A stretch of 64,000 nt of DNA. It comes from Terriglobia bacterium (GTDB lineage: Bacteria; Acidobacteriota; Terriglobia; Bryobacterales; Bryobacteraceae). Positions 28,662-31,967 of the stretch are shown piece by piece. The notes beneath the pieces are model-generated. The model made no database searches, was not told the DNA's origin, and saw only the letters and a list, made by a program, of their open reading frames with translations. The first letter of the stretch is position 1. Each line of letters opens with the position of its first letter. The translations under genes were made by a program, and so were the position numbers. Location: positions 1-64,000 of the forward strand of contig JAIQFS010000022.1 of NCBI GenBank assembly GCA_020073145.1, given 5' to 3'.

Positions 28662-29525
28662 TCAGGCCAGCGCTTTTCCGTAGAGCGCGAGCAGGCGGCT
28701 CCAGGCTTTCTCGGCCAAAGGCTCGTTGTGGACCGTCGAATCCGGCGGGCACCAGCCGTGCATCGCCTGGTAGACTTCGATCTCCGCCGGCACGTGCGCC
28801 TTTTCGAACGTCTCTTTCATGACGTCTTTTTCGTCCGGCGCCTGTTTGTCGTCATTTTCCGCGATGCAGATGAGAAACTGCGCGTGGGTCGTCGCCGCCT
28901 GTAGATGCGGACTATTCGGCGCCTTGGTCACGAGTCCGTTCCCGCCATGGAAGGAGGCAACCGCTCCGACGCGATCCGGCATGGCCACCGCGGTCCGGAA
29001 TGCCATGGAGCCTCCCATGCAATAGCCCTGGGTGCCCATCTTGCGATTCTTGGCAACGGACGACTGCTGGTCGAGCCACCCGATGAACGCCTTGGCGTCC
29101 GTCATGTTGGTGGTCTCGTTCAGACTGCGCGCCAGCGGCATCAGCTCCTGAATCGCGGTGGCGGCTCCCTGGTCGGCCGTGGGGGCCTTCTTGGTGCGGT
29201 AGAACGGATTCACCACAAGCACCGAATAGCCGGATTCGGCGAGCCGCTTGCCCATCTGGCGGAACGCCGGCCGCAGACCGAAGATGTCCGGCCAGATCAG
29301 AACGCCGGGGGCGGCGCCGTTGGACGGATGCACAAAGTAGCTGTCGGCAGCGCCGTCCGGCGTCGTCACGGTGACGTCCGATTCGGTCACGGCAACTGCG
29401 TTGGCGACGCGGGGCAGCACTAGGGCCACGCCCGCGGCCAACATCTTGCCGAATTGCTTTCGGGTCACGAGACCGCGAGCCTCGGCGTCCTGCCGGTCGT
29501 TCTCAAAATGATCCTGATCGCACAT
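28662..29525 (-). CDS. dienelactone hydrolase family protein, exported
   Basis: This 287-residue alpha/beta hydrolase has the triad typical of the family: cysteine nucleophile in GYCMGGS near residue 169, aspartate in CIAENDDKQAP near residue 224, and histidine in AMHGWCPP near residue 255. The N-terminus (VTRKQFGKMLAAGVALVLPRVANA) looks like an export leader following about 20 polar residues. Classical dienelactone hydrolase acts in chloroaromatic breakdown, but most family members have other ester substrates. A strong GAGGAGG site precedes the ATG. It follows the LigM-like gene's promoter region on the same strand, but the 171-bp gap argues against one operon. Confidence 0.82.
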   Translation of the reverse strand: MCDQDHFENDRQDAEARGLVTRKQFGKMLAAGVALVLPRVANAVAVTESDVTVTTPDGAADSYFVHPSNGAAPGVLIWPDIFGLRPAFRQMGKRLAESGYSVLVVNPFYRTKKAPTADQGAATAIQELMPLARSLNETTNMTDAKAFIGWLDQQSSVAKNRKMGTQGYCMGGSMAFRTAVAMPDRVGAVASFHGGNGLVTKAPNSPHLQAATTHAQFLICIAENDDKQAPDEKDVMKETFEKAHVPAEIEVYQAMHGWCPPDSTVHNEPLAEKAWSRLLALYGKALA

Positions 29526-29575
29526 AACCCCTCCTCATCGAAACTGGATGGCGCGGCAAACCACGCGCCTACCGG

Positions 29576-29587
29576 GATATTCTATAT
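29576..29587 (-). promoter_or_regulatory. possible -10 region of the dienelactone hydrolase gene
   Basis: GATATAGAATAT lies about 50 nt before the start at 29525, the same string as found before the gene at 14869-16335. Confidence 0.3.
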
Positions 29588-29600
29588 CACTCGCCGGCGC

Positions 29601-30155
29601 TTAGCGCGGCCGGCTCCTCTTGAGCGCGCCGCGGGAGAGGAAGCGGCTCACCTCGCGCAGCCAGGCCGACTGAGCCTCCACCAGCAGCAACCCGCGGCGC
29701 AACGCCAGGTAGAGCGCGAAATCGTAACCCGTTCTGAGGGGTTGTTTCAGACAGCTCTCGTGCATGGACCGAAGCAGCTTGAGATAGGCGGCGGTCTCGC
29801 CCTGGACGCGCGCGATTTCCCGCCGCAAGGCCGGCTGGTTGACCATCAGACCGGCCAACAGCTTCACCAAGAGATCGTACTGTGGGCGCGGCAGACCGGT
29901 CGGGGCAGCCACCCATTGTTGCAGTTGCGTCCGGCCGTTTTTGGTGAGCGAGTAGAGCTTCTTGGCAGGCTTGCCGGCTCCCGCCACCTCACGGAAGACG
30001 ACACATCCGTCGGCGTCGAGGCGGGCCAGTTCCCGATAAATCTGCTGATGAGAGGCATGCCAAAAATGGGACAGCACCTGGTCAAAGCTGCGGGCAATCT
30101 CATAGCCCGTCATGGGCCGGTGGGCGAGCACGGTCAGAATGACTTCGCGAAGCAT
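29601..30155 (-). CDS. PadR-family transcriptional regulator
   Basis: This 184-residue regulator has the PadR winged helix at residues 1-80 (MLREVILTVLAHRPMTGYEIAR, HQQIYRELARLDADGCV, KKLYSLTKNGRTQLQQWV) followed by the helical Vir_act_alpha_C-type dimerisation domain. PadR proteins usually repress a neighbouring gene and themselves. It is divergent from the DinB-like gene at 30202, and the 46 bp between the start codons hold two matching inverted repeats, so these two genes are the probable targets. The start is set at 30155, where the conserved domain begins; the frame stays open upstream into the divergent gene. Confidence 0.88.
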   Translation of the reverse strand: MLREVILTVLAHRPMTGYEIARSFDQVLSHFWHASHQQIYRELARLDADGCVVFREVAGAGKPAKKLYSLTKNGRTQLQQWVAAPTGLPRPQYDLLVKLLAGLMVNQPALRREIARVQGETAAYLKLLRSMHESCLKQPLRTGYDFALYLALRRGLLLVEAQSAWLREVSRFLSRGALKRSRPR

Positions 30156-30172
30156 ATGCACATAGTTGCATA
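30155..30172. promoter_or_regulatory. PadR operator 1
   Basis: TATGCA-N6-TGCATA forms a perfect 6-bp inverted repeat. It overlaps the padR-like start codon (30153-30155) and the -35 box of the divergent DinB-like gene (TTGCAT, 30166-30171). The spacing and A/T-rich ends fit known PadR sites of the ATGT/ACAT type. Confidence 0.65.
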
Positions 30173-30188
30173 CCGTCGCTCCATGGGC

Positions 30189-30194
30189 TAGACT
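30189..30194 (+). promoter_or_regulatory. -10 box of the DinB-like gene
   Basis: TAGACT lies 7 nt before the ATG at 30202 and exactly 17 bp after TTGCAT at 30166-30171, which gives a complete promoter. The predicted transcript starts at or beside the ATG. Confidence 0.5.
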
Positions 30195-30211
30195 ATGCAC
30201 TATGTTGCATA
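30194..30211. promoter_or_regulatory. PadR operator 2
   Basis: This is a second TATGCA-N6-TGCATA repeat, 39 bp from the first and nearly the same in its centre (CTATGT against CATAGT). It covers the start codon of the DinB-like gene at 30202, so bound protein would block transcription initiation there. Confidence 0.65.
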
Positions 30212-30780
30212 TCAGAGGATTGACGATACTGACGATCATCGCGGGCCTGGCCGCGGCCCAGGCGCAAGTCCCGCCGGCGGCCGCCACGACTCCGCCCAGC
30301 TTCAGCTTCATGGGACCGTGCTCCACGATTTCCTGCGAGATGGAGAACGATTGGACGAGGAACAACGTGATGCTCTATGGGCTGGCCCGGGCGATGCCGG
30401 AAGATAAGTACGGCTTCAAGCCCACTCCGTCGGAACAGAGCTTCGGCGAGCGGGTGCTGCATGTGGCTCAAGTGAACCTCAGCCTGCTGCAGGGGCTGGG
30501 CGCGAAGACGCCGGCGCCGGCGATCGACGACAAGGCCACCTCCAAAGCGGAAGCGATGGCCGCGCTGCAAAAGGTCGGCGATTACGGGGTGGCGGTCATC
30601 AAGGAGTTCGGCGACCAGGGGCTCGCCACGCGCGTGGCCTCCCCTCTGTTCATGGGGCCCCTGTCGAGCCGGCAACGGATGCTCTACTTCCTGATGACGC
30701 ACAGCCAGGACACCTATGGGCAACTGGTCGTGTATTTGCGGCTGAATGGGATCACGCCGCCGGCGAGCCGCCAGCCGTAG
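30202..30780 (+). CDS. secreted DinB-like protein under PadR control
   Basis: This 192-residue protein has a signal peptide (to AQAQ near residue 22) and a DinB-type four-helix bundle: ENDWTRNNVMLYGLARAMPEDKYGFKPTP, FGERVLHVAQVNLSLLQGLG, and the closing THSQDTYGQLVVYLRLNGITPP. Histidines in the second and last helices are placed like the metal ligands of DinB proteins. The role is unknown; secreted DinB proteins are common in Acidobacteria. It is intact, unlike its relative at 18411. The ATG at 30202 is favoured because it begins the signal peptide and sits 7 nt after the -10 box. Confidence 0.8.
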   Translation: MLHIRGLTILTIIAGLAAAQAQVPPAAATTPPSFSFMGPCSTISCEMENDWTRNNVMLYGLARAMPEDKYGFKPTPSEQSFGERVLHVAQVNLSLLQGLGAKTPAPAIDDKATSKAEAMAALQKVGDYGVAVIKEFGDQGLATRVASPLFMGPLSSRQRMLYFLMTHSQDTYGQLVVYLRLNGITPPASRQP

Positions 30781-31055
30781 CGGCCTCCGGACGAAGCGGC
30801 ATGACCCCGTGAATCATCCGGGATTCTGAGATAGAAATCCGATCTGGCCGGGCGACTGGCACGAGCAGGAAATCCGAATGGCGCATCAGGGATGGACGGG
30901 CTTGCTGCAATTCCGTTGGCGTCGGTGTTTGGAGCGCAGGCTCTCGCCGCGGAAAACGATGGGCTGCGAGGTGCAAACACGCCGCCTCGCGTAGTGACCC
31001 ATGGCGATTCAGCCGGCGGCTCACGGCGGGGTTTGGCGTTTCTTCCGCCGCCGGC
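30781..31055. other. intergenic, no feature seen
   Basis: These 275 bp separate the convergent DinB-like and dihaem cytochrome genes. Open frames here lack homology and ribosome-binding sites. Confidence 0.4.
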
Positions 31056-31967
31056 TCAGGGAGTGCAGCGGGCCGCGGCGCCGCCGCGCTTGTCGCGATA
31101 GACTCGATGGCATTGGAAGCAGGAATCGGCGAGCTGGTTGGTGGCGTCGCTCACGGCTTCCTGGCTTCTTGACTGCGAGGCCCGATACGCCTCCCGCCCG
31201 GCTTCGACCAGCCCTTGGGTGAATTTGATCCAATCGGGACGATCGACCGGAACCGGCTTGCCGTTCTCGCAACGGCGTCCGGGCGTCAGCAGGAGCGGAG
31301 CGGACTCGGCAATGGCCACCGAGGCATAGTCGACCACCTGCCAACCGGTGTAGATACCGGCGCCCCAGTCGGTCCAGTTGAAAGACGGGTTGGCGCCCGC
31401 GGCCACCGGAGCGGGCTTGACCGGCGCGCCGGGGTCGTTGGATTGGACGTTGAAGATGATGTTGGAAGCGGGGAACAGGATGCCTCGCATCACCTGATTC
31501 AGATTGCCCATGGCCGGGAAGAAGGGCGCCTGCGACTGAGCGGCCGCGCCGGCCGAGGGCGGGGCCGCGGCGATCACGATGGACTTCAGCCCCGCCTCAT
31601 CGGCGGAGAGTTCCTTCCGTCCCGATGGAAACTTGCCGGCCTGCAGCAGGTACGCGATGAGGTTGGCGGTTTCGGCAGGCTGGAGCGTCCCCGGATTGTC
31701 CGCCGGCATGGTGTTGCGGATCTTGCCCGCCAACTCGGATAATGGCTCCGCTCCCCAGACGGCGAGGAACGGGCTTCCCGCCAGCGGGGGGGCGGCTTTC
31801 CCTTCGAGCGCGTCGCCGTGGCACTTGGCGCATTTTTCGCCGTAAAGAGTACGGCCCTGCGCGGCCTGGGCGTCGGTGTACAGACCAACGTTCGCGGTAC
31901 GGGTTGGCTGGGCCTGCAGAGCGGGGGCGAGCGATGCGAGCAGGACGCCGGCGGCGAGCGTTCTCAT
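31056..31967 (-). CDS. secreted dihaem cytochrome: class I domain plus cytochrome c'-like domain
   Basis: This 303-residue protein has a signal peptide (to about residue 19) and an N-terminal class I cytochrome c domain with CAKCH near residue 46 and the axial-Met segment NTMPADNPG near residue 86. A linker of about 100 residues leads to a C-terminal helical domain ending SCFQCHRVYRDK, the end-positioned CxxCH typical of cytochrome c'. The two haem types suggest electron transfer combined with ligand binding or storage. It lies 68 bp downstream of the cytochrome-ankyrin gene on the same strand, but has its own -10 box. Confidence 0.85.
   Translation of the reverse strand: MRTLAAGVLLASLAPALQAQPTRTANVGLYTDAQAAQGRTLYGEKCAKCHGDALEGKAAPPLAGSPFLAVWGAEPLSELAGKIRNTMPADNPGTLQPAETANLIAYLLQAGKFPSGRKELSADEAGLKSIVIAAAPPSAGAAAQSQAPFFPAMGNLNQVMRGILFPASNIIFNVQSNDPGAPVKPAPVAAGANPSFNWTDWGAGIYTGWQVVDYASVAIAESAPLLLTPGRRCENGKPVPVDRPDWIKFTQGLVEAGREAYRASQSRSQEAVSDATNQLADSCFQCHRVYRDKRGGAAARCTP

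Follow-up and report, generated by a model that had tools for sequence, protein, structure and literature searches.

Two copies of one palindrome lie between a padR gene and a divergent gene for a secreted DinB-like protein. The question that this locus raises is whether they are operators of the adjacent PadR and, if they are, which promoter they govern and where such an arrangement comes from. The locus is part of a stretch of 64,000 nucleotides, which we call the window. Our reading, to which we give a probability of roughly 0.8, is that positions 30155-30211 are a paired operator for the adjacent AphA-type PadR, on which two dimers would block the dinB promoter until a small molecule releases PadR, and that PadR probably limits its own synthesis as well. 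This reading builds on the sites themselves, on their uniqueness in the genome, on the subfamily of the PadR, and on the recurrence of the site, the pairing and the promoter placement beside relatives of this PadR. In Table 1, we report the features of the region.

Table 1. Features of the padR-dinB region, in window coordinates.
Feature	Position	Strand	Evidence or remark
Dienelactone hydrolase-family gene, 78 bp downstream of padR	28662..29525	-	PF01738 5.8e-35
padR, 184 aa, AphA-like	29604..30155	-	PF03551 4.7e-16; PF10400 1.5e-8
Operator 1 (predicted), TATGCACATAGTTGCATA	30155..30172		exact match; 11/12 to AphA consensus
Putative dinB -35, TTGCAT	30166..30171	+	part of best plus-strand promoter in about 30061-30215
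Putative dinB -10, TAGACT, 17 bp spacer after -35	30189..30194	+	promoter scoring
Operator 2 (predicted), TATGCACTATGTTGCATA	30194..30211		exact match; 11/12 to AphA consensus
dinB-like gene, 192 aa, ATG inside operator 2	30202..30780	+	PF12867 8.2e-11; PF05163 6e-8

The two copies of TATGCA-N6-TGCATA are exact and stand where the earlier note had placed them, between padR on the minus strand and the secreted DinB-like gene on the plus strand, 39 bp apart from start to start with a gap of 21 bp between the 18-mers. That each copy touches one start codon is also correct: the padR ATG occupies 30155-30153 on the minus strand and starts on the first base of site 1, and the dinB ATG (30202-30204) lies within site 2. 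The promoter proposed for dinB, with TTGCAT as a -35 in operator 1 and a -10 located 17 bp on, is recovered by our promoter scoring, in which the same hexamers form the best plus-strand promoter there. The putative dinB -35 falls within operator 1, which also reaches the padR start codon, and operator 2 spans both the dinB start codon and the expected transcription start.

A pattern search of the window allowing up to 3 mismatches returns 6 matches, the 2 exact copies and 4 with 3 mismatches. Shuffled versions of the window give a mean of 8.88; the real total is not in excess of that, and therefore in the window information comes from the exact copies alone. Across the 6.32 Mb of the genome there are 2 exact sites, both in the padR-dinB intergenic region; no site differs at a single position, and 24 differ at two. 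These 24 we regard as background, because reversing the pattern as a control yields 36 sites when up to 2 mismatches are allowed. From the base composition one would expect about 0.09 exact sites in the whole genome, with an expectation of about 1.7e-6 for a further exact site no more than 60 bp to either side of the first. The whole-genome count of two exact copies and no others, set against this expectation, rules out a chance origin of the pair. Outside the padR-dinB intergenic region, the genome has no strong site of this type.

The window PadR passes the curated cut-offs both for the PadR winged-helix domain PF03551 (59 bits, cut-off 27) and for the C-terminal Vir_act_alpha_C domain PF10400 (35.6 bits, cut-off 22.4), and it fails that of the NCBIfam model TIGR03433, padR_acidobact (39 bits, cut-off 101.8). 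Of the proteins with a solved structure, the one closest to it in sequence is the gene activator AphA (1yg2, E 9.5e-24), with 8ioi and other PadRs ranking behind. The recognition segment of the window PadR is HQQIY, within ASHQQIYREL, to be compared with ASHQQVYREL in AphA of Vibrio cholerae. From here on we use HQQ[IVL]Y as a signature, which is defined in the present analysis and not a curated one.

The likeness to AphA includes the DNA site. In an AphA ChIP-seq study, ATGCAA-N4-TTGCAT is the likely preferred palindrome (PMC6855506), and each of the two window sites agrees with that consensus at 11 of 12 positions. The same study describes AphA as a multi-target quorum-sensing regulator that activates tcpPH and that represses cqsS by binding two adjacent sites over the cqsS start cooperatively (PMC6855506). 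As described there, the double site at cqsS spans the start site, as the two sites of the window do. AphA differs in its many targets, whereas the window genome has exactly two strong sites, both by its own regulator gene; the target in the window is a DinB-like gene. The phenolic-acid repressor PadR (structure 5x11 and related entries, which we take to be PadR of Bacillus subtilis) belongs to the same family and matches the window PadR with E 9.2e-16 over 2-170, but its recognition segment is AKHSQIY where the window PadR has HQQIY. The operator of the phenolic-acid repressor, ATGT-N8-ACAT, is unlike the window site.

We scanned a collection of species genomes, blind to protein, for two ATGCAN6TGCAT sites 24-54 bp apart, which yields at least 119 stretches. 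Among the 119 matches listed, 55 have a PadR ORF, delimited by its stop codons, no more than 66 bp from the site pair, and the recognition segment of all 55 of these PadRs reads HQQ[IVL]Y. The 55 listed PadR loci come mostly from Pseudomonadota, with some Cyanobacteria and one Dadabacteria; 16 of them are Acinetobacter. In two loci, L107 and L133, site 1 is identical to that of the window over 16 bp. The window thus adds one more AphA-type PadR whose gene lies by a probable paired operator, an arrangement that is also present beside related repressors of distant bacteria. A first set, made of 80 of the 119 listed stretches with 41 of the 80 beside a PadR ORF, underlies three results given below: the Pfam tally (39 loci), the promoter profile anchored on site 1 (41 loci) and the tree (40 PadRs, after one fragment was dropped).

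The calling of the two sites PadR operators in the earlier note is very probably right, judging by sequence likeness: an AphA-type protein meets an AphA-type site, such pairs stand beside a PadR in 55 of the 119 matches listed, and the -35/17/-10 placement is the same. A competing explanation is that a different regulator owns the palindromes, or that they are structural repeats or arose by chance, and we find it hardly credible for this locus. It draws on the other 64 of the 119 matches listed, in which the pair is not beside a PadR, and on the presence amongst the matches listed of Nostoc-type tandem repeats and of pairs near AAA_14-DUF4143 genes; those non-PadR pairs that we inspected include repeats in tandem, repeats of hairpin-like form and pairs whose neighbours are unrelated genes. 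Yet the window, with its small expectation of exact sites (about 0.09), has two of them 39 bp apart, by a PadR of the very subfamily with which such pairs are associated.

Some of the pairs without a PadR are described here in their own right. In L068 (5808-5855), a ATGCAGTAnAGTGCAT-like palindrome pair lies between a gene for an IMS-type polymerase and a gene for an AAA_14-DUF4143 ATPase, 35 bp upstream of the latter. L081 (3956-4003) has a palindrome pair with an ORF of 384 aa at 35 bp, length and distance as in L068, and in L115 (2494-2548) the pair is found 68 bp past an AAA_14-DUF4143 gene. L080 (4772-4813) and L121 (786-828), an Olsenella and a Collinsella, have ATGCAAAA-type pairs, and in L121 a minus-strand gene for a manganese efflux pump (Mntp) has its 3' end 37 bp from the pair. 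In one Amulumruptor assembly, a unit of two ATGCACCnnGGTGCAT palindromes, 43 bp apart, occurs at least 5 times over several contigs (L092 at 504, L108 at 763 and 2806, L118 at 5133, L136 at 2120), in the manner of a dispersed repeat. In Nostoc-type cyanobacteria (L065, L101, L128, L129, L132 and L142), tandem arrays with a period of 21 or 42 bp mimic the paired operator.

The same group of PadRs can be approached from the protein side, with a search profile built from the window PadR and 29 of the 41 first-set PadRs. In 77 genomes around a Marinobacter, the profile finds 13 PadRs, of which 11 are independent once L255 (already in the paired set) and L267 (only 36 bp upstream) are set aside. 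The 250 bp upstream of these 11 include at least one exact site in 6 cases and an exact pair in 2, so the site is common beside such PadRs and the pair less so. One of them, L261, has its pair 39 bp apart, and the padR-proximal site is identical to window site 1 over 16 bp. For the HQQ-type L249, L259, L260 and L266 there is no upstream site with fewer than 3 mismatches and no pair; L268, with YQQ, likewise has no upstream site with fewer than 3 mismatches, and three further paralogs without HQQ (L256-L258) have no such site either.

The placement of the promoter relative to the pair recurs in the listed paired-site loci, where site 1 supplies the -35 of the divergent gene, TTGCAT in 52 of the 55. 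This -35 is partly forced because TGCAT is part of the search pattern, and the -10 alone is independent. For 56 sequences, the 55 listed loci and the window, the mean best score of a -10 located 15-19 bp past the site-1 hexamer is 3.74, versus 1.26 for shuffled spacers (sd 0.27, largest 2.05 of 200), and 0 of the 200 shuffles reach 3.74. A spacer of 17 bp is the best in 41 of the 55 listed loci. The first set of 41 loci gives 3.86 versus 1.06 shuffled, with 17 bp best in 30 of 41, and a profile anchored on site 1 of these 41 has a mean of 5.29 at the promoter position versus -3.83 elsewhere (sd 1.94). The window -10, TAGACT, shares 4 of 6 positions with TATAAT, and the identical hexamer recurs in L139 with a spacer of 17 bp and in L110 with one of 18 bp; a strict sigma-70 consensus scan of 29400-31100 lists no promoter. 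The dinB transcription start would be expected at about 30201-30202, at the A of the dinB ATG. Since that ATG lies inside site 2 and the expected start falls on its A, a leaderless mRNA is predicted, and the dinB mRNA is probably of this kind.

Such a placement suggests how the switch could work. One PadR dimer would occupy site 1, over the dinB -35, and a second would occupy site 2, over the dinB transcription start and start codon; both together would exclude RNA polymerase and keep dinB off, and a small molecule that releases PadR would turn dinB on. With a centre spacing of 39 bp, the two sites look to roughly the same side of the helix, so that a cooperative contact of the two dimers is possible. 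For the 55 listed loci, the centre distances are 27-31 (9 loci), 34-43 (35) and 45-53 (11), the commonest being 42 (13), and the window falls in the main class of 34-43. A periodicity of the spacing at 10.5-13 bp is matched by 0 of 5000 uniform draws, with a best period of 11.5-12 and not 10.5; the test takes the loci as independent, and their relatedness (the 16 of 55 from Acinetobacter) weakens its statistics. The phasing is weaker over the 119 listed stretches than over the first 80, with distances of 31, 45 and 48 bp occurring, and is still periodic.

It is improbable that PadR is instead an activator of dinB, a role for which AphA at tcpPH would be the precedent (PMC6855506). The window sites span the -35 and +1 and are not upstream of the -35, and the AphA sites that lie over the cqsS start repress (PMC6855506). 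Repression of dinB by PadR remains our reading, and it would run in one direction: the mutual repression that the earlier note had predicted does not hold, because the DinB-like protein comes from an enzyme-type family, not a regulator family.

The control of padR itself calls for separate treatment. No convincing padR promoter was found by promoter scoring of the window, where the minus strand has only weak promoters, or at the mirrored position across the paired loci, which gives no signal (1.02 versus 1.28 shuffled for the 55 listed loci and the window; 0.73 versus 1.05 for the first set). Elsewhere there is a weaker padR-side signal at the edge of site 1 (3.15, first 41 loci), which cannot serve the window padR because its start codon already occupies that place. 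In all 55 listed loci padR starts 16-127 bp past site 1 (49 of the 55 at 16-54), versus 1 bp in the window, and therefore the arrangement in the window is not the usual one. As for the target side, in five Acinetobacter loci an ORF of 674 residues begins 59-93 bp past the start of site 2. Peculiar to the window are its compactness, the dinB ATG in site 2 and the padR start at the edge of site 1.

It could be, then, that PadR represses dinB only, and that padR is transcribed from an unrelated or read-through promoter with no autoregulation, the overlap with site 1 being a matter of compaction. The silent mirrored position, the weak minus-strand promoters and the distance of padR from site 1 in all 55 listed loci agree with this, but the sites lie directly upstream of padR, where a dimer at the padR start should impede any upstream promoter, and we hold control of dinB alone to be rather unlikely. 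Since site 1 overlaps the padR start, PadR probably limits its own synthesis; we infer this autorepression from the overlap, the search for a padR promoter having given nothing convincing. The dienelactone hydrolase-family gene may be co-transcribed with padR, and it may have come under padR control in the present genome. A consensus scan of 29400-31100 finds no terminator-like site.

The target protein passes the cut-off for the DinB_2 domain PF12867 (42.9 bits, cut-off 24.8), and its N terminus is short, hydrophobic and signal-peptide-like as judged by eye. Three histidine metal ligands are usual in the DinB fold. An alignment of 20 sequences has H87 in all and H167 in nearly all of them, and Thr171 of the window protein takes the place of the His of HxxEHYG in several relatives, a position that varies in others. 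If Thr171 means altered metal binding, the protein may not be a standard DinB-fold enzyme.

Within the phylum of the window, which we take to be Acidobacteriota, the exact paired site is present in the own genome only (1 of 396) and in none of the other 395 phylum genomes searched; a reversed control of the paired pattern also occurs in 1 of 396. No other PadR-DinB pair is found at the 29 DinB loci of relatives, in the 119 paired-site matches listed, or at 33 other phylum PadR loci, these 33 being 29 of 50 other profile matches and 4 of 29 other loci picked by eye for length. None of the 33 PadRs has HQQ[IVL]Y, and the 250 bp upstream of each are free of sites with 0 or 1 mismatch, a missed case being possible since the phylum profile search scored at most 8 candidates in most genomes; in L013, a site with 1 mismatch sits downstream of its PadR, not upstream. 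Titles and abstract openings of the literature, with subscription papers thinly covered, include no PadR-DinB pair and no paired operator like the present one.

The best PadR match by E-value among 80 relatives has 27% identity over 167 residues, and paired-site PadRs elsewhere have up to 37% identity to the window PadR in a multiple alignment, a measure that differs from that of the 27% figure. A tree of 74 PadRs places the window PadR among the paired-site PadRs, as sister to L135 with support 0.877; the split holding exactly the paired-site group and the window has a support of only 0.262. DinB-like proteins are found in 66 of 81 genomes of relatives (own included), with 12 in the own genome; on plasmids, there are only 4 weak matches to DinB, with 28-35% identity. 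That an outside regulator took over a resident dinB gene fits these data. Composition gives no support for a recent transfer, the GC of padR (0.639) and its GC3 (0.793) resembling those of the neighbours. Three of 4 congeners retain the dienelactone hydrolase gene at 75-81% identity, and near it we find no padR, dinB or cytochrome gene (E 1e-5, stretches read), with one congener contig ending 204 bp past the hydrolase gene. The padR-dinB unit therefore sits at a variable place, which is not decisive for transfer. As a tentative proposal, an AphA-type PadR with a phased paired operator could be a portable one-promoter switch, here imported from outside the phylum and spliced onto the coding start of a resident dinB, so that the operator forms the first codons of a leaderless mRNA.

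The nearest parallels to the window are PadR loci of FMN/FAD oxidoreductases, as in the Noviherbaspirillum (L139), Vreelandella (L107) and Marinobacter (L135) examples, which have the paired site, the spacing class, the HQQ PadR and the -35/17/-10 placement of the window. The difference is in the target: in the loci scanned, the divergent genes are mostly flavin oxidoreductases, and that of the window is a DinB-like gene, of which the 119 matches listed include no homologue. In the 39 of the 55 listed loci that were scanned, with the divergent gene picked mechanically as the longest ORF and 25 of 31 families listed in the tally, PF00724 is found in 20 and NAD_binding_8 in 27. Flavin-enzyme partners elsewhere hint at lipid-like or electrophilic inducers, which for the window is a lead only.

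At the level of the protein and of the DNA site alike, the locus links an uncharacterised PadR with one evident target to AphA, a regulator that has been studied by experiment. It suggests a rule in which a PadR with HQQ[IVL]Y goes with a paired ATGCA-N6-TGCAT, the -35 being in the regulator-proximal site and the -10 usually 17 bp on, and such a rule may be of use in predicting the target promoters of HQQ-type PadRs across phyla. The secreted DinB-like target offers an entry point into a family of proteins common among the bacterial group of the window.
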